24,318 bases of DNA, from contig JAMCRH010000144.1 of the NCBI GenBank assembly GCA_023380515.1, positions 1 to 24,318 of the forward strand, written 5' to 3'. The stretch is from Gammaproteobacteria bacterium (GTDB taxonomy: Bacteria > Pseudomonadota > Gammaproteobacteria > Enterobacterales > Alteromonadaceae). Position numbers and translations under genes: made by a program. Shown piece after piece: positions 1 to 24,318 of the stretch; position 1 is the first letter of the stretch; each line of letters begins with the position of its first letter. The notes beneath the pieces were generated by a model. The model was given only the letters and a program-made list of their open reading frames with translations, had not been told where the DNA came from and searched no databases.

Positions 1-21
1 GCGCCTTGAGGCGCTTCTTTT
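1..21 (+). terminator. Probable intrinsic terminator of a gene upstream of the window
   Basis: A GCGCC stem (1-5), a TTGA loop (6-9) and a GGCGC stem (10-14) are followed directly by TTCTTTT (15-21). The stem may extend to the left of the window, so only its inner part is visible. It probably ends a + strand gene lying outside the window. Confidence 0.5.
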
Positions 22-7428: not shown

Positions 7429-8889
7429 ATGACGGTCACCACTAAACGTCCTTCTTATTTACAGGCGCTCATTCCTTTATTGGCGCTGATTGCCATGTTG
7501 AGCAGTTCGGTCTTTCTGTTCGGTGAAGACTCGTCGTATGGCCCAAATCAAATTGCCTTGCTGATTGCTGCTGCGATCGCTACGGTTATTGCATTTGCCA
7601 ATGGTTATCGTTGGGAAGCAATCGAAAAGGGTATTACGGATGGCATTTCAGTTGCACTCGGCGCGATTCTGATCATTTTAATGGTGGGTGCGCTTATCGG
7701 TACCTGGCTGCTCGCTGGGATTGTTCCGACCATGATTTACTATGGCCTAGAGTTGCTGAGTCCGAGTTGGTTCTATGCAGCCGCCTGTATTATCTGTGCC
7801 ATCGTTGCACTCTCGATTGGTAGTTCTTGGACTACTGCTGCGACAATCGGTGTCGCATTGATTGGTGTTGCGACAGGTATGGAGCTATCATTGCCAATTA
7901 CAGCAGGTGCCGTCGTTTCTGGAGCCTATTTCGGCGACAAAATGTCACCGTTATCAGACACAACAAACCTTGCTCCAGCTGTCAGTGGTACCGAGTTATT
8001 TGCGCATATCCGCTATATGAGTTGGACTGCATTCCCAGCACTTGGTATTTCTATTGTATTGTTTTTGATTCTCGGCTGGTCAGCTTCAAGCAGTGCCAAC
8101 CTTGACTCTCTTGATGCCATGCAGTCAGAGCTCCGCAACCTATTTAATATTAGCCCGGTGATGCTGATTCCATTGGCCGTGTTGTTTGTTCTTGCGGTGG
8201 CGAAAAAGCCTGCATTGCCATCCATTTTAATCGGTGCGTTGGTCGGTGGTTTATGGGCGTTATTATTTCAACAAGATGTTTTAGCTACGTTAGCTAATGC
8301 AGACCGCACCAGTGCCATTGTTGCCGCCTTTGAAACCGTTTGGTTAGCTTTGGCAAGTGGCGTGCAAATTGCCTCTGACAATGCTGATTTAGAATCGTTG
8401 ATCAGCGGCGGCGGCATGGAAAGCATGATCAACACGGTCTGGTTGATTATTAGTGCAATGACGTTCGGCGCCGTCATGGAAACCACTGGGCTGTTACAAA
8501 AACTAATTCGCGGCATTTTAAAAGTGGTGAAGGGCACAACGTCCTTGGTCACTGCAACCGTATTTACCTGTTTTGGTGCTAACGTTTTAACCGCTGATCA
8601 GTACATGGCTATCGTTCTGCCAGGACGGATGTTCCGTGAAGCGTACGCTGAAGCGGGGCTTGATCCACGCGTACTGTCGCGGACACTCGAGTCTAGCGGT
8701 ACAATTACATCGGCCTTGATTCCATGGAACACGTGTGGTGCATACATGTTCTCGGTGCTCGGGGTTTATCCATTGCATTACGCACCGTTTGCGTTCTTCT
8801 TACTGCTCGTTCCTATGCTAACGATTTTGTATGCCTACACGAACTTTAAAATTTTACGTTTACCTGAAAAGAACATGACGGTAGCTTAA
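7429..8889 (+). CDS. nhaC: NhaC-family Na+/H+ antiporter
   Basis: This is a 486-residue inner membrane protein with about eleven or twelve hydrophobic helices. It resembles the NhaC antiporters, which expel Na+ in exchange for protons. The region GAYFGDKMSPLSDTTNLAPA (residues 165-184) is characteristic of the family, and the mid-protein SIGSSWTTAATIGVA stretch is also typical. Length is normal. Start ATG at 7429 has a weak GGAA-type ribosome-binding site. Some family members exchange malate or other metabolites for Na+, so the exact substrate is open. The stop codon lies inside a stable hairpin, and pepN starts 26 bases later, so the two genes may share a transcript. Confidence 0.9.
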   Translation: MTVTTKRPSYLQALIPLLALIAMLSSSVFLFGEDSSYGPNQIALLIAAAIATVIAFANGYRWEAIEKGITDGISVALGAILIILMVGALIGTWLLAGIVPTMIYYGLELLSPSWFYAAACIICAIVALSIGSSWTTAATIGVALIGVATGMELSLPITAGAVVSGAYFGDKMSPLSDTTNLAPAVSGTELFAHIRYMSWTAFPALGISIVLFLILGWSASSSANLDSLDAMQSELRNLFNISPVMLIPLAVLFVLAVAKKPALPSILIGALVGGLWALLFQQDVLATLANADRTSAIVAAFETVWLALASGVQIASDNADLESLISGGGMESMINTVWLIISAMTFGAVMETTGLLQKLIRGILKVVKGTTSLVTATVFTCFGANVLTADQYMAIVLPGRMFREAYAEAGLDPRVLSRTLESSGTITSALIPWNTCGAYMFSVLGVYPLHYAPFAFFLLLVPMLTILYAYTNFKILRLPEKNMTVA

Positions 8890-8915: not shown

Positions 8916-11615
8916 ATGGCGCTGATGACTGATACTGTACAAACGAGTGGTTCGACATTAACGTCTGAGCAGACGTCTGAACAGGCCAAAACAGCTCCGC
9001 AAGCTAAACTACGGCTTGATTATCAAGCGCCGTTATTTGCGATCGACGAAGTTGACCTAGTGTTCGATTTGCAACCAACGGCTACTACCGTGGTGAGTGA
9101 ACTTAAAGTTCGGCGTCTCGGTGATGAAACCACTCTCGTTCTCGATGGTGAACAACTATCATTGGTCGAACTGCAGTTAGATGGCGTTGAACTTGAAGCA
9201 AAACAGTTTCACGCAACCAGCAATAAGCTCACTATTTTTAACCTGCCGTCTGAAGGCACCTTGCGTGTTGTCACCAAGCTTAATCCACTTGCGAATACAG
9301 CGCTCGAAGGCCTATACCTTTCAGCCGGCACTTTTTGCACCCAATGTGAAGCCGAAGGCTTTCGGCGCATTACCTATTTCCTTGACCGTCCTGATGTCCT
9401 CTCGGTATACCGCACCACTGTGATTGCCGATAAAGCCAGTTACCCGTACTTATTAGCCAACGGTAATGCGATTGCACGAGAAGATCTTGGCCAACGACAC
9501 AAAGTCATTTGGCACGACCCTTTCCCCAAGCCTTGCTATTTGTTTGCTTTAGTTGCTGGTGATTTTGATGTCTTGAGGGATACCTTTGTGACGCGAGACC
9601 ATCGCACAGTGGCGCTTGAGCTATTCGTTGATAAGGGCAACTTGCCGAAAGCTGATTACGCTATGGGGGCTTTAAAGCGAGCGATGAAATGGGACGAGGA
9701 GCGTTTTAATCTCGTCTACGACCTCGATATCTACATGATTGTCGCCGTCGACTTCTTCAACATGGGCGCGATGGAAAATAAAGGCCTGAATATTTTTAAT
9801 TCAAAATATGTTCTGGCTAACGATAAAACGGCGACCGATCAGGACTTTTTGAATGTTGAATCGGTTATTGGTCATGAATATTTTCACAACTGGACCGGCA
9901 ACCGAATTACGTGCCGAGATTGGTTTCAACTGAGTTTGAAAGAGGGATTAACGGTCTTTCGTGATCAAGAGTTTAGCGCCGATCTGGGTATGCGCTCGGT
10001 AAACCGTATTCAGGATGCACGAATTATTCGTACTCATCAGTTTGATGAAGACTCGAGTCCTATGGCGCATCCGATTCGACCGGACCGTGTCGTGGAGATG
10101 AATAATTTTTACACCGTGACAGTGTATAACAAAGGTGCCGAAGTCATTCGTATGCTGCATACTTTGCTGGGCGAAGAGGGCTTTCAACGCGGTATGGCAA
10201 TGTATGTCGAGCGCCATGATGGCCAAGCGGTTACCTGCGAGGACTTTGTTTGCGCCATGGAGGACGCCAATCAAGTCGATTTAAGCCAGTTCAGATTGTG
10301 GTATAGCCAAGCCGGAACGCCGCACGTTTATGTCGAAGAACATTATGACGCAGAAAAACAATGTTTTACCCTCGATGTGACACAGTCACTGCCGGCGACA
10401 ACTGGGCAGAATCATAAACTACCCATGCATATTCCACTGCGTGTCGAGTTTGTCAATAAGGCTGGGCAACCTAAACAACTGAATGACGAGCAGGGCCATG
10501 CGGTTACGCTACTCGAGTTACGAAAAGCACGGCAACAGTTTGTCTTTCACGGCGTGAATGAGCCAGTCATCGCAGGCTTGCTAGCAGACTTTTCTGCACC
10601 CATTCGAGTAGAGGTTCAACGCAATGAGCAACAGCTACTGGCCCTCATTGCTGGTGGTCGAGACCCATTTTTGCGCTGGGACGCGGTGCAAACATTCTAT
10701 TTGCAGACCTTAAAAAACGCCGTCGCACTGCTACAAACGGACCCACAACTCGAACATCAAGCGTTACAGGTGCCGTCGGCTTTAATTCAGCTCTTACAGC
10801 AAGAGCTCGAACGAACTAATACGGATCAAGCACTACTCGCTCTATTATTGCAAATCCCTAACGAAGAAGCGTTGAGTCAAGAGTACGACTGTATTCCGGT
10901 TGAATCGATTGCAACGGCAGTAGGGAGCTTAAGAAAGCAGCTCGCGGTGGCATTACAAGCACCGCTCTTAAAAGTTATTGCGCAAGCGCGGAATGAAATT
11001 CAATCGCTCGACTCAGAGGCGATTGCAGAACGGATGCTAGTTAATACCTGTATGGCCTTACTCGCTCAGTTGTCGGACAACGACCAAGTCAACGTTCGTC
11101 TCCAGTCACAGTTTGCCAGTGACAACATGACTTTAAAATTCGGTGCTTTGCAGGCTGCAGTGCATGCAGCACATCCATACGCTAAGACATTCCTAGATGA
11201 ATTTGCCCAACACTGGGCTCAAGACGTTCTGGTCATGGACAAATGGCTTGCGGTTCAAGCTACGTCACCGCAGCTAGAAAGTGTTACTGAAATAGCGAAT
11301 CTAACGGGGTCAAAATACTTCAACTGGCAAAACCCGAATCGGATTTATGCGCTGCTTGCTGCGTTCACTCATAACTTGGCGGCATTGCATCATGCCAGTG
11401 GCGAAGGCTATCAATTAATCGTGGGTGCAATTCGACGTTTGAATACGACTAATCCACAAGTTGCCTCACGGCTACTGTCACCACTGTTGAAATGGCGAAA
11501 GCTACCTACTAAGCAGCAGGTGCTACTCAAAAAGGAGCTCATTTCGCTTAGTCGATTGGATAATTTAGCGCCTGATTTATATGAAAAAGTTAATCAAACG
11601 TTAACCGAAAATTAA
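8916..11615 (+). CDS. pepN: Aminopeptidase N (M1 family)
   Basis: This is an 899-residue cytoplasmic zinc aminopeptidase that removes N-terminal residues from peptides. The exopeptidase motif GAMEN is at 284-288. The zinc site HEYFH is at 320-324 with the third ligand E343, all displaced by 23 residues from the E. coli enzyme. Four-domain length fits: N-terminal beta domain, catalytic domain, short beta domain and helical C-terminal domain. The start at 8916 is fixed by GGAG (8907-8910) five bases upstream. The first roughly 27 residues form a Thr/Ser/Gln-rich extension with a TSEQ duplication before the usual family start around AKLRLDYQAP. It follows nhaC closely and is followed by a structured region before gdhB. 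Confidence 0.96.
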   Translation: MALMTDTVQTSGSTLTSEQTSEQAKTAPQAKLRLDYQAPLFAIDEVDLVFDLQPTATTVVSELKVRRLGDETTLVLDGEQLSLVELQLDGVELEAKQFHATSNKLTIFNLPSEGTLRVVTKLNPLANTALEGLYLSAGTFCTQCEAEGFRRITYFLDRPDVLSVYRTTVIADKASYPYLLANGNAIAREDLGQRHKVIWHDPFPKPCYLFALVAGDFDVLRDTFVTRDHRTVALELFVDKGNLPKADYAMGALKRAMKWDEERFNLVYDLDIYMIVAVDFFNMGAMENKGLNIFNSKYVLANDKTATDQDFLNVESVIGHEYFHNWTGNRITCRDWFQLSLKEGLTVFRDQEFSADLGMRSVNRIQDARIIRTHQFDEDSSPMAHPIRPDRVVEMNNFYTVTVYNKGAEVIRMLHTLLGEEGFQRGMAMYVERHDGQAVTCEDFVCAMEDANQVDLSQFRLWYSQAGTPHVYVEEHYDAEKQCFTLDVTQSLPATTGQNHKLPMHIPLRVEFVNKAGQPKQLNDEQGHAVTLLELRKARQQFVFHGVNEPVIAGLLADFSAPIRVEVQRNEQQLLALIAGGRDPFLRWDAVQTFYLQTLKNAVALLQTDPQLEHQALQVPSALIQLLQQELERTNTDQALLALLLQIPNEEALSQEYDCIPVESIATAVGSLRKQLAVALQAPLLKVIAQARNEIQSLDSEAIAERMLVNTCMALLAQLSDNDQVNVRLQSQFASDNMTLKFGALQAAVHAAHPYAKTFLDEFAQHWAQDVLVMDKWLAVQATSPQLESVTEIANLTGSKYFNWQNPNRIYALLAAFTHNLAALHHASGEGYQLIVGAIRRLNTTNPQVASRLLSPLLKWRKLPTKQQVLLKKELISLSRLDNLAPDLYEKVNQTLTEN
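8961..8984 (+). repeat. 12-bp tandem duplication inside the pepN N-terminal extension
   Basis: ACGTCTGAGCAG (8961-8972) is followed directly by ACGTCTGAACAG (8973-8984), differing at one base. It encodes TSEQ twice in the apparently unstructured N-terminal extension of PepN and probably arose by replication slippage. Confidence 0.85.
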
Positions 11616-11744: not shown

Positions 11745-14700
11745 ATGGCATCGGTCAACAGTCAACCACCGGTTATCCTCGAAAAAGTTTCAGAGACCAT
11801 TCATCAGCGCTTCCCGAAAGCCAGTGCAGCGCTTGTGGATGAATTTGCTCAACGCCTCTATCGAAATGTTTCTCGCGACGACTTAGCGGGACGCGATCAT
11901 AGTAATATCTATGGCGCTATCGTAGGCCTTTGGCACAGCTTTAACGATTACGAGTCGAACACCAAAGCGACTATTAAAGTTTATAACCCAGAGGTGTCAA
12001 AGCACGGCTGGGAATCACCCCATACAATTATCGAGATTATTCAGACCGACATGCCGTTTATGGTTGACTCGGTGCGTATGGCATTGAGCCGTTTAGGCAT
12101 CAACTCACAGTTATTATTGCATTCACCATTGGTTCATCGTCGCAATGATGAAGGCAAAATTGTCGAAATTTTACCGGCAGGTCAAACCGATGAAGCTGCG
12201 CAGACCGACACTGTTTTCTTGGTGGAAGTTGATCGTCAAAACGATGCGAATGAACTTAAAGAGTTAAAAGCTGAACTGGTTTCGGTCATGAATGAAGTTG
12301 CGCTCGCTGTGAGTGACTGGCGCCCCATGCGTGCGAAGCTCAAGTCGATTGCAGAAACGCTAGACCAACGCAACTTCCCTGGTGCGCCAGAAAAGCTTGA
12401 ACAAGCACAGCGGTTTTTAACGTGGTTAGCCGAAGATAATTTCACGCTGATGGGATATCGCAGTTACACCGTGAACGCAGTCGAAGGTGACCACGAGCTT
12501 GTTCAAGACAAAGATTCAAGTTTAGGTTTGTTGAAAAACTCCAAAGACAACAAGCCACTTCGCTTAGGTAACATGAGCAAATTAGCACGCGCAACGGCTC
12601 TTGCGAACGATGAAATACTGTTACTGACCAAAACCAATGCGCGTTCGCGAGTGCATCGTCCGGCGCACAATGACTACATTGGCATTAAACGTTTCGATAA
12701 GAAAGGCAAGGTAATTGGCGAAGACCGCTTTATTGGTCTGTACGCTGCGACTTTCTATAACGATAGCGTCATGGACATCCCTTTGGTCAGCGATCGTGTG
12801 AAAGCGGTTCTGGACAAATCACGTTACGCAAAAGGTACGCATGCAAGTAAAGCATTGCTTAATATTATGCAAACCTACCCACGTGACGAAATCGTGCAAA
12901 GTAACGAAGAAGACCTGCTGAAAACGGCGTTAGGTGTTCTCCAAATTCAAGAGCGTGATATCACCCGAGCGTTTTTACGCCGGGATATTTTTGGTCGCTT
13001 TATTACCGCGATGGTGTATGTGCCGAAAGAGCGCTACAACACCTTGTTACGGGTTAAAACCCAAAATATTTTGGCGAAAACACTTGGTAGCACTGAAGAA
13101 GTGGATTTCACCACCTATTTCTCTGAATCGGCACTGGCGCGCACGCAATATACGATCCGCGTAAAAAACAGCGACCAGGAAATCAATATTAAAGAATTGG
13201 AAGAGAACCTAATGGAAGCATCACGCAGTTGGGAAGATAACTTAGAGCGCTTGCTGGTAACAGCAAAGGGTGAAGGGGCTGCTCGCGACTTAATGAAGCG
13301 GTATGCTGCAGGTTTCCCACGTGCATACAAAGAAGATGTTTTGCCGTCCGTTGCACTAGCAGATATCGAACAGTTAGAAGCGTTAGACGATGAACATCGT
13401 CTTGGCATGCTGTTCTATCGCGCGCAAGAAGTTCAGGACGACTCAAACCGAGTTAAATTGAAATTGTTCCACCGTGATGAGCCGATTCACTTATCGGACG
13501 TTTTGCCAATGTTGGAAAACTTTGGCTTGCGAATCATTAACGAAAGTCCATATCAAATTAAGACCAATGACGGTCATATTTTCTGGGCGCTTGACTTCTT
13601 TATGCTGCATACCGCTGGCAAACTCGATTTAGAGCAGAGCCGAGAAGCGTTTCAAAACGCCTTCGCTAAGGTTTGGGCGGGCGAATATGAAGACGACGGC
13701 TTTAACCGTTTGGTACTTGGTGCCGGTATGGAAGGTCGTCATGTGGTTATTCTTCGAATGTTTGCCAAGTACATGCGCCAAATCGGTGTCACGTTCAGCC
13801 AAAGCTATATTGAGAGTACGTTCACGCGTTACCCGAATATCGCAGCATTGTTGGTAAAACTTTTCTACACCCGCTTTGAGCCGGGCGTGAAGAATGTGAA
13901 GAAGAAAGTTGAAGCGCTTGTCAGCAAAATCCAAGGCGAACTCGAGAAAGTCGCAAGCTTGGACGACGACCGCATTATCTGTCGCTACTTAGACCTGATT
14001 CAAGCTGCTTTACGGACCAACTTCTTCCAAGTCGACAAAGATGGTAACGAGAAGCCATATGTGTCAATCAAGTTCTTGCCTGAACTGATTGCGGAAATGC
14101 CGTTACCGTTACCGAAATATGAGATCTTTGTGTATTCACCGCGGGTTGAAGGTGTTCATTTACGTGGCGGTAAAGTTGCCCGCGGCGGTTTACGTTGGTC
14201 CGATCGTCGTGAAGACTTCCGTACTGAAGTTCTCGGTTTAGTAAAAGCACAACAAGTTAAGAACACGGTCATTGTGCCAGTTGGCGCGAAAGGTGGTTTC
14301 GTCTGTAAGCAGTTGCCTGAAGAACGTGATGCTATGCTTGAAGAAGGCAAATCTTGCTACCGCACGTTTATTCGTGCGCTGCTCGATATTACCGACAACA
14401 TCATCGACGGTGAGATCGTTCACCCAGCGAACGTTGTTCGTCACGATGAGGACGACCCGTACTTAGTTGTTGCGGCCGACAAGGGAACGGCAACCTTCTC
14501 AGATATCGCCAATGGTATTTCAGCCGAATACAACCACTGGCTAGGCGACGCATTTGCGTCTGGCGGTTCAGTCGGTTACGACCATAAGAAAATGGGCATC
14601 ACTGCTCGCGGTGGTTGGGAATCAGTCAAACGTCACTTCCGTGAAATGGGCATCGACTGCCAGACCACTGATTTCACCTGTGTTGCAATCGGGGATATGG

Positions 14701-20165: not shown

Positions 20166-22325
20166 ATGCAACAGTTTGAGTATTTTATTCCCTGCGGGAG
20201 AGGCCTTGAAGAGCTTTTACTCGCCGAAGTAACAAGTCTTGGTGGCGAACAAGTGAAAGCCACCAATTCAGGTGTTCATTGCACTGGTAGCCTCCAATTG
20301 GGTTATGAATTATGTTTATGGAGTCGACTCGGCAGCCGTGTACTCATGCGCTTAACCGCAGGCGAAGTTCACGATCGCTACGGATTGGAGAAAGTTGCCG
20401 CCCAGTTTGACTGGCCCGAGATTTTTAATGAGCGCAATACCTTTGCGGTGCGCTTCAACGGCACGAGCGAAACACTCAAAAATACACAATTTTCAGCACA
20501 AGTCATTAAGGACGGTGTCGTCGATTCATTTCGCCGCCGTGGCTTGCGGCGTCCTGATGTAGCCGTGCAGCGCCCGGAAATTAATATCCAAGGTTACTTA
20601 CATAAGAGTGAAGTAACGATTTACCTTGATTTGGCCGGCAGTGGCCTACACGAGCGCGGTTATCGACAAGCCAAAGGCGCAGCTCCAATTCGCGAGACAT
20701 TAGCTGCCGCATTGGTGCAAAGAGCTGGACTAACCGAATCAGCAATTCTTGCACCAGACCAGTGGCCTGCGTTAATTGCGGACCCAACCTGTGGTTCAGG
20801 GACTCTATTAATCGAAGCAGCCATGGTCGCCACTGACCGAGCACCCGGTTTGGGGCGCAGCGATTGGGGGTTCAACGCTTGGCGTGGACACAAAGCGCAA
20901 GTCTGGAATGACGTTAAAGCTGCGGCGCAAGAACGTTTTGAGCGCGGCCGTGCTGCATGCAAAACGCAATTTCATGGTGTTGAAGAAGATGCACAGATTG
21001 TGCAAGCAGCACAACAGAATATTCATGCGCTTGAATTTGATGATTTGATTAAAATCGAGCAGGGCAATGCAACAGCTGACTGGGTATTGAAGCGTTACCG
21101 TCACGCCAGTAGCGGTTTAATGTTGGCGAACCCACCTTATGGCGAGCGGCTCGGCAATACCTTCAGCGCTTGGCGTTTCTACCGCGATTTCGGGCGTCAG
21201 TTACGTAAAGGCATTCCAGGTTGGCGAGCGGCAATTTTGGCACCAGATGAAGCCATGATTAAAGCGATGCGTATTCGCACTGAAAAAAAATACAAACTGA
21301 ATAACGGTGGTATTTCTGTTTTGCTCGCAATTCTGCAACTCAATGATGAGCAAGAAGAGTTTGCTCGACCAGAAGTTGAAGCATTACAAAACCGATTACT
21401 TAAGAATTGGCAAGCACGGGAAAAATGGGCAGCCAAAGAAGGGGTTAACTGTTTTCGAGTGTATGACGCCGATATTCCTGAGTTTAATGCTGCCATTGAT
21501 TTTTACGATGGTCATTTGATTATTCAAGAATATGCAGCACCTGCAAATATCCCGGTGCAAGTCACCGAGAAACGTTGGTGGCAAATCATTGAAGCCGTAC
21601 TCGATAGCTTACCGATTGATGCTGACAAGATACATACCCGGCAACGCCAACGTCAGAAAGGCGAGTCTCAGTATAATCGCGTTGCTGAAGAAGGCGTTAT
21701 GATTGAAGTTCAAGAGTATAACGCTAAGTTCCTTGTGAACCTCACCGACTATCTTGATACCGGGTTATTTCTCGATCATCGCTGGGTGCGTAAAGATATT
21801 CAAAAACGCGCAATGGGTAAACGCGTGCTTAACTTGTTCGCTTATACAGGCTCGGCATCGGTGCATGCAGGGTTAGGTGGTGCAGAGCAAATTACCACGG
21901 TTGATTTATCAAAAACCTATTTGAATTGGGCGAAAGATAACTTCCGTTTAAACCATCTGACGATTAATCGTCACGAGTTTATCCAAGCGGACTGTGTGAA
22001 ATGGCTCGAAGAGCAAAGTACGCAAGCTGAACCAGAACAATGGGATTTAATCTTTATCGACCCACCAACGTTTTCGAATTCAAAGCGTATGAGTGATGTC
22101 TTTGACGTGCAACGCGACCATGTTGCGATTCTTCGCGCAGCGAAATCATTACTGAGTAAGAATGGTTTACTTATTTTCACCACCAATAAGCGCGGTTTTA
22201 AGCTTGCTAGCGAGGAACTCGCTGCACTTGGTTTAGTGAGTGAAGATCACACCCGTGACAGTATTCCGCCTGACTTCGCGAAACAGCGAGCGATTCATTA
22301 CTGTTGGTATTTGCGTCATGCGTAG
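20166..22325 (+). CDS. rlmL: Bifunctional 23S rRNA methyltransferase RlmKL (m2G2445 / m7G2069)
   Basis: This 719-residue fused enzyme methylates two guanines of 23S rRNA, using S-adenosylmethionine. It has an N-terminal THUMP domain (about 45-155). The RlmL domain follows, with the SAM-binding DPTCGSG (206-212) and catalytic NPPYGERL (322-329). The RlmK domain has NLFAYTGSASVHAG (556-569) and DPPTFSNSKR (632-641). Length is close to the 702 residues of the E. coli fusion. I prefer the ATG at 20166 because MQQFEYFIPCGRGLEELL resembles known N-termini; an in-frame GTG at 20148 would add six residues. Neither start has a clear ribosome-binding site. The stop overlaps the next gene by eight bases. 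Confidence 0.95.
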   Translation: MQQFEYFIPCGRGLEELLLAEVTSLGGEQVKATNSGVHCTGSLQLGYELCLWSRLGSRVLMRLTAGEVHDRYGLEKVAAQFDWPEIFNERNTFAVRFNGTSETLKNTQFSAQVIKDGVVDSFRRRGLRRPDVAVQRPEINIQGYLHKSEVTIYLDLAGSGLHERGYRQAKGAAPIRETLAAALVQRAGLTESAILAPDQWPALIADPTCGSGTLLIEAAMVATDRAPGLGRSDWGFNAWRGHKAQVWNDVKAAAQERFERGRAACKTQFHGVEEDAQIVQAAQQNIHALEFDDLIKIEQGNATADWVLKRYRHASSGLMLANPPYGERLGNTFSAWRFYRDFGRQLRKGIPGWRAAILAPDEAMIKAMRIRTEKKYKLNNGGISVLLAILQLNDEQEEFARPEVEALQNRLLKNWQAREKWAAKEGVNCFRVYDADIPEFNAAIDFYDGHLIIQEYAAPANIPVQVTEKRWWQIIEAVLDSLPIDADKIHTRQRQRQKGESQYNRVAEEGVMIEVQEYNAKFLVNLTDYLDTGLFLDHRWVRKDIQKRAMGKRVLNLFAYTGSASVHAGLGGAEQITTVDLSKTYLNWAKDNFRLNHLTINRHEFIQADCVKWLEEQSTQAEPEQWDLIFIDPPTFSNSKRMSDVFDVQRDHVAILRAAKSLLSKNGLLIFTTNKRGFKLASEELAALGLVSEDHTRDSIPPDFAKQRAIHYCWYLRHA

Positions 22326-22557
22326 TTTCTATTTGTTGACGAAGGACAACTGTCCACTCTGTATCCAAGCTATTCAGATTATTCACCTCACTGAGCTAGA
22401 AGAGCCGATTGAGCTCGGGGTAGTCGACATCGCGACAGATGCTGATCTGCTAGAAGAGTACGCCACCTTGGTACCCGTGCTAATCCGTGGCAGTGACGAA
22501 CAAGAATTGAAGTGGCCGTTTCAGGCGGAGAAGTTGAAGGAATTTTTGCAATCATGA
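22318..22557 (+). CDS. Small glutaredoxin-like protein (DUF836 type)
   Basis: This 79-residue protein has a thioredoxin-like fold: a first beta strand (FYLLTK), the CPLC active-site motif at 12-15, and LVPVLI with the cis-proline P53. It is probably a cytoplasmic thiol-disulfide protein; its partner is unknown. The ATG at 22318 overlaps the last eight bases of rlmKL (ATGCGTAG) and its stop overlaps the uup start in ATGA. It is therefore likely to be translated by coupling, since no clear ribosome-binding site is seen. The frame is open further upstream inside rlmKL, but the extra residues do not look like the family. Confidence 0.82.
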   Translation: MRSFYLLTKDNCPLCIQAIQIIHLTELEEPIELGVVDIATDADLLEEYATLVPVLIRGSDEQELKWPFQAEKLKEFLQS

Positions 22558-24299
22558 GTGTTGTTCTGCGCTTAGCTAACGCCCAACTTGCGTTTGGCAC
22601 CGCGCCCGTTCTCGATCAAGCTGAATTGGTCGTGGAGCAGGGTGAACGTGTGTGTATTACTGGCCGAAACGGTGCTGGTAAATCAAGTTTATTGAAAGTA
22701 TTGCAAGGGGATCTTCAACTCGACGGTGGTGAATTGCACTATGTCGGCAATACACGTGTCGCGATGTTACCGCAAGATCCGCCGCCGCGCACCGAAGGCA
22801 GTGTCTTTCACTATGTGATCGGTGCTTTCGCGGAAACTGGCGCCTTATTAGAGCAGTATCAAGAGCTCAGTCAGCGCTTAGCGAACCACCCTGATGACGC
22901 AGCAGCATTAAGTAAATTAACGCAGATTCAAAGTCGTATCGAAGCGGCTCAAGGCTGGCAGTTACAAACTCAAGTCGAACAAGTCTTAAGTCGCTTAAGT
23001 CTCGATGGCGCGCAGGCGATGGCGAATTTATCCGGCGGTTGGCTGCGCCGTGCTGCACTTGCACGGGCCTTGGCAACCAATCCAGATATTTTGCTCCTTG
23101 ACGAGCCGACCAACCACCTTGACGTCAACGCCGTTAAATGGCTTGAGAATATGCTGCTCGAATTTCGTGGGGCGATTATTTTTATCAGCCATGACCGGGT
23201 GTTTATTCGTCGCTTGGCAACTCGAATCGTTGACCTTGATCGCGGCACGTTAACTAGCTTTCCAGGGGATTACGCAGCTTTTCTCGTGGAGAAACAACGT
23301 TTACTCGAGGTTGAAGCTAGTCAGAATGCTGAGTTTGATAAGAAATTAGCTCAAGAAGAAGTTTGGATCCGGCAAGGAATTAAAGCCCGTCGCACACGCA
23401 ATGAAGGCCGCGTACGTGCGCTACAAGAGCTACGGAAACAGCGCTCGCAACGGCGACAAGTACAAGGTCAAGTGAAGTTCGATAGCACAACGTCGGAACG
23501 TTCAGGCAAGGTGGTTTTCGAAGCTAAAGACTTGGCATTGGGCTTTGGCGATAAGACATTGATTGAAAATTTAACCATTACGATTCAACGTGGTGATAAG
23601 TTAGCACTCGTTGGGCCGAACGGCTGCGGTAAAAGTAGTTTGATTCGCTGTATCTTGGGCGACTTAGAGCCGCAAAGCGGCACCTACAAACTTGGCACTA
23701 ATTTACAAGTTGCATACTTCGACCAGCACCGGCAATTACTCGATGAAAACCTTTCGGTCGCAGATAACGTTGCTGAGGGTAAGAAAGAAGTTACTCACGG
23801 CGGGCGTACACGTCATATCTTTAGTTACTTGCAGGACTTCTTATTCTCACCACAGCAAGCGCAGATGCCAGTCCGAGCGTTATCTGGCGGTGAGAAAAAC
23901 CGCGTGATGCTGGCAAAAATCTTACTTCGCGAAAGCAACTTATTAGTATTGGACGAACCGACTAACGACCTCGACATCGATACCCTTGAACTATTAGAGC
24001 AGGTCGTTGTTGAGTATCCGGGAACCGTATTTGTTGTTAGCCATGACCGAGAATTTATTGACAACACAGCAACGTCTGTATTGCTTTTTGAAGGTGCTGG
24101 GAAAGTCACAGAGATAGTCGGTGGCTTCAATGAAGTGGCTCATTACCAAGCTGCACAACAAGAAGTGTCGGAAAAAGCGAAAGAAAAAGGAACTATTTCA
24201 ACCAGCGAGCACTCAGACAAGCAATCCTCTTTAGCTAAGAGCTCGAACAAGTTATCATACAAATTAAAGAGGGAATTAGAGCTGCTGCCAAAACAAATT
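22554..24299 (+). CDS. uup: ABC-F ATPase Uup, truncated at the 3' end by the contig end
   Basis: 582 codons are present of a protein normally near 635-640 residues. Two ATP-binding cassettes are visible. The first has Walker A GRNGAGKS (37-44), signature LSGGW (159-163) and LLLDEPTNHLD (180-190). The second has GPNGCGKS (354-361), LSGGE (443-447) and DEPTNDLD (467-474). A charged inter-domain linker lies at about 240-310. The C-terminal DNA-binding coiled coil has just begun (KLSYKLKRELELLPKQI) when the sequence turns into adapter. There are no transmembrane segments; ABC-F proteins act at the ribosome, and Uup is also linked to precise excision of transposons and to DNA branch intermediates. 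GAAGGA near 22536 precedes the ATG, which overlaps the stop of the glutaredoxin-like gene (ATGA). Confidence 0.95.
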
Positions 24300-24318
24300 A
24301 GATCGGAAGAGCACACGT
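24300..24318 (+). other. Illumina TruSeq adapter remnant (sequencing artefact)
   Basis: AGATCGGAAGAGCACACGT, the last 19 bases of the window, is identical to the first 19 bases of the common Illumina TruSeq adapter. It is not genomic DNA. The uup frame happens to stay open through it (R-S-E-E-H-T), so a protein predicted across it would end in six false residues. Confidence 0.95.

Follow-up and report, generated by a model that had tools for sequence, protein, structure and literature searches.

The 33-base read-1 adapter considered here is that of Illumina TruSeq. It reads AGATCGGAAGAGCACACGTCTGAACTCCAGTCA (PMC10038132). Sequence beginning like this adapter also occurs in other assembled data: a scan of the viral contigs of IMG/VR gave at least 120 stretches with at least 127 matches of its first 19 bases (the 19-mer), and the reversed 19-mer, taken as a control, had no match in that collection. 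Among the matches listed, 125 of 127 point outward and lie no more than 250 bp from where the retrieved stretch ends, a distance that refers to the stretch, some stretches being shorter than their contig; the other two (L104 and L140) are not outward at an end. Again among the matches listed, the adapter continues to 33 bases or to the stretch end in 119/127 and breaks off before both in 8/127. Among 398 genomes sampled from the phylum, three held the 19-mer, at four places in all, of which three are outward and 5 to 8 bases from the contig end, with adapter running for 24 to 27 bases up to that end. The fourth (L210) is inward, lies 99 bases from its contig end and has 20 matching bases, after which it is unlike the adapter. 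The outward positions at ends and the continuation as adapter, together with the lack of matches for the reversed 19-mer, indicate that the 19-mer in the IMG/VR matches listed and the sampled genomes is mostly adapter at contig ends.

Two of 5426 complete Escherichia coli genomes have a match to the 33-base adapter, with 100% identity in the first and 97% in the second. Inside chromosomes listed as complete, the matches to the 33-base TruSeq adapter lie at NZ_AP046542.1 2224713-2224745 (exact) and at NZ_AP040990.1 4842175-4842206 (97%). In the phylum sample, the genome G323 is rated 100% complete and has the adapter at two contig ends (L208 and L211). A literature search gave no papers quoting adapter-encoded peptides and, among the titles listed, none devoted to the rate of adapter contamination at contig ends or in assemblies.

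The reading frame at the end of the DNA studied here (22554-24317) is uup, which encodes an ATPase of the ABC-F family. Its closest counterpart is the Uup protein of the near-identical genome G001, with 639 residues. The Pfam domains of Uup comprise PF00005 (ABC ATPase) in two stretches, the linker ABC_tran_Xtn (PF12848) at residues 226-302 and, in G001, ABC_tran_CTD (PF16326) at residues 566-634.

Results

The window, by which we mean the whole stretch of 24,318 bases that was analysed, reads AAAACAAATT up to base 24299 and AGATCGGAAGAGCACACGT from base 24300 to its very last base, on the plus strand. A sequence-only reading had taken these last 19 bases for the start of the Illumina TruSeq adapter, and the comparison bears this out: from adapter base 1, they are identical at 19 of 19 positions to the 33-base read-1 adapter given in PMC10038132. 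Bases 14 to 19 of the 19-mer are ACACGT, as in the read-1 adapter, and not GTCGTG, as in the read-2 adapter (both given in PMC10038132); a read-2 adapter was rejected. Beyond these bases, the full adapter would continue with CTGAACTCCAGTCA..., whereas the window stops there, with 19 of the 33 bases. The remnant is oriented outward, as for read-through at a contig 3' end.

The 13-base core of the adapter occurs a single time in the window, both strands counted, and in 0 of 100 dinucleotide shuffles of the window. Outside 24300-24318, no read-through 12-mer of either TruSeq adapter was found in the window. A Nextera adapter was rejected, as the window held no Nextera 14-mer. The coordinates of the features are compiled in Table 1.

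Table 1. Features at the 3' end of the window, with the evidence for each
Feature	Position	Strand	Evidence
TruSeq read-1 adapter read-through, almost certainly non-genomic	24300..24318	+	Exact adapter match; G001 alignment stops at 24299; encodes RSEEHT in the uup frame
True part of uup (ABC-F ATPase), 582 of expected 639 codons from ATG 22554	22554..24299	+	581/582 residues identical to G001 Uup; cut inside the C-terminal domain by the window end
Genome/adapter junction	24299..24300	.	G001 GACGAATTAGAAG... vs window AGATCGGAAGAG...

G001 has 100% of the window's sampled 31-mers in common with it and comes from a distinct assembly. Its alignment spans window 1-24299; the identity is 99.75%, the differences being 49 mismatches and a single gap of 12 bases. 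With window 22319-24318 as the query, G001:C1:437279-439259 corresponds to window 22319-24299, with zero bases further; the three other matches of this query in G001 are 35 to 47 bases long, internal to the query and away from the junction. The last mismatch is at 23579, and hence the two sequences agree throughout the 720 bases that precede the junction. After the junction, G001 has GACGAATTAGAAGCAGAGC, identical to the adapter at 4 of 19 places and different at 15, and runs on into a normal, intact uup tail. At base 24300 itself, the window reads A and G001 reads G. Related genomes in which these 19 bases run on as genomic sequence had been named as a refutation of the adapter reading; the outcome speaks against a genomic origin, with G001 matching up to 24299, intact in uup thereafter and devoid of the adapter core.

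In the uup frame, whose codons are counted here from ATG 22554 (the list of open reading frames starts the same frame at the upstream GTG 22512), base 24300 is the first position of a codon, and the adapter is translated as R-S-E-E-H-T. The earlier count of six false residues was thus correct, and the window protein consists of 582 true and 6 adapter-encoded residues. It differs from G001 Uup after residue 582, and the junction falls inside ABC_tran_CTD, a C-terminal domain that had been presumed to be a coiled coil. Cut at residue 582 by the window end, the window protein has no match to this domain. Compared with G001 Uup, the window copy is 57 residues short at its C-terminus, a consequence of where the sequence stops, and there is no sign of a biological variant.

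The same picture emerged from an alignment of 81 Uup proteins, made up of that of G001 and those of the 80 best among 515 relatives from the genome collection. By sequence, the nearest named relatives are Aliidiomarina and the related Idiomarina and Pseudidiomarina, and the window therefore probably belongs to Aliidiomarina or a close relative. Past the junction column, 81/81 run on for 54 to 60 residues, and RSEEHT is found in none of the 81. Directly behind the junction, 71 of the 81 proteins have E, 8 have A and 2 have D, as opposed to R in the window. Three positions further, E is present in all 81 and also in the window, where it derives from the adapter's GAG. Furthermore, the adapter core was absent from the loci of the best 80 of 515 relatives on either strand (0/80). 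That uup departs from its family exactly at 24300, as had been stated from the letters of the window, is therefore confirmed by G001, identical at 581 of 582 residues until then, and by the best 80 of 515 relatives, which continue otherwise.

Discussion

Our data leave hardly any doubt that the last 19 bases of the window are residual Illumina TruSeq adapter from read-through of read 1, an ordinary assembly artefact. This rests directly on a perfect match to the adapter, an alignment that breaks off cleanly at 24299, a uup that is intact in G001, and the lack of the sequence in the relatives examined. It is most likely that uup is intact in the organism and that the truncation is only apparent; the 639-residue Uup of G001 likewise supports the earlier view of the truncated gene as an artefact. 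The further claim that the assembly contains untrimmed adapter holds as far as the adapter is concerned, with an exact match at 24300-24318, while "untrimmed" is inseparable here from "incompletely trimmed."

As for how the adapter came to lie there, we infer a sequence of events in library chemistry, trimming and assembly. A library fragment most likely ended at genome base 24299, was A-tailed and was then ligated to the adapter. A-tailing is a step of TruSeq-type ligation, and the A at 24300 is consistent with such a tail. A read would then have passed beyond the insert into the adapter, which would have escaped trimming, and the assembler would have lengthened the contig by 19 false bases at this end on the strength of the adapter-bearing read. 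In being outward and at an end, the remnant resembles the adapter at contig ends, or near them, in IMG/VR and the sampled genomes. The window ends exactly at the 19-mer; among the IMG/VR matches listed, the stretch ends no more than 25 bases from the 19-mer in 61/127 and exactly at it in 2/127.

Two other origins have to be considered. The 19 bases could stem from a chimeric read or another library artefact, for example a dimer of the adapter or its ligation within a chimeric fragment. Such forms may exist, and at L208 and L211 in G323, the bases preceding the adapter look like further adapter. In the window, however, the adapter is preceded by plain genome that is collinear with G001 over window 1-24299, and the window holds no other TruSeq 12-mer. 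Simple read-through suffices, and we regard a chimera or dimer as very improbable.

Still less probable is that the 19 bases are real genome of this strain, with uup truncated by a rearrangement or insertion specific to it and a likeness to the adapter that arose by chance. G001 is a different assembly, with 49 mismatches and a 12-base gap relative to the window, and therefore, G001 alone leaves room for a strain difference at the junction. Neither is the 19-mer adapter at a contig end in every instance, the exceptions being 1/4 matches in the phylum sample and 2/127 among the IMG/VR matches listed. Against this stands the base composition of the window, from which only about 2e-7 occurrences of the 19-mer are expected on both strands together. 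Moreover, the 19-mer begins exactly where the G001 alignment stops and ends exactly where the window ends, it follows directly on the 720 bases free of mismatches to G001, and it had no match in 196 sampled genomes of the family, G001 included. A chance match was therefore rejected on the expected count and the stop of the alignment at 24299, and among the analyses run, none yielded evidence in favor of a genomic origin. Least credible of all is a real, strain-specific break of uup whose first 19 bases equal TruSeq by coincidence and whose Uup lacks most of its C-terminal domain, a genuine truncation that was rejected on the G001 alignment and on the Uup proteins of G001 and of the 80 best among 515 relatives.

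The terminal 19 bases are thus a common kind of artefact and no real feature. Their relevance is one of data quality, and they carry no information on the biology of uup. They should be removed, and the uup fragment should be marked as incomplete, which keeps the RSEEHT tail and the missing C-terminal domain from being mistaken for real properties of the protein. An adapter screen of the remaining contig ends in this assembly is also warranted.

The left end of the window is collinear with G001, base 1 corresponding to G001:C1:414949. Window 1-14 is terminator-like by eye, with a hairpin and then a T-rich run, and no TruSeq 12-mer was found there. Apart from the 3' end, the window differs from G001 at 8960, where it has 12 bases fewer, equal to a single copy of the unit in an imperfect tandem repeat of period 12. 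This gap keeps the frame and lies near the start of the aminopeptidase-N-like reading frame 8916-11615. Of the 49 mismatches to G001, 31 fall into four tracts with a total of 401 bp (window 7980-8112, 10872-10937, 13979-14042, and 14313-14450), and the other 18 are scattered; the clustered tracts look like recombination between strains or a mixed-strain consensus.
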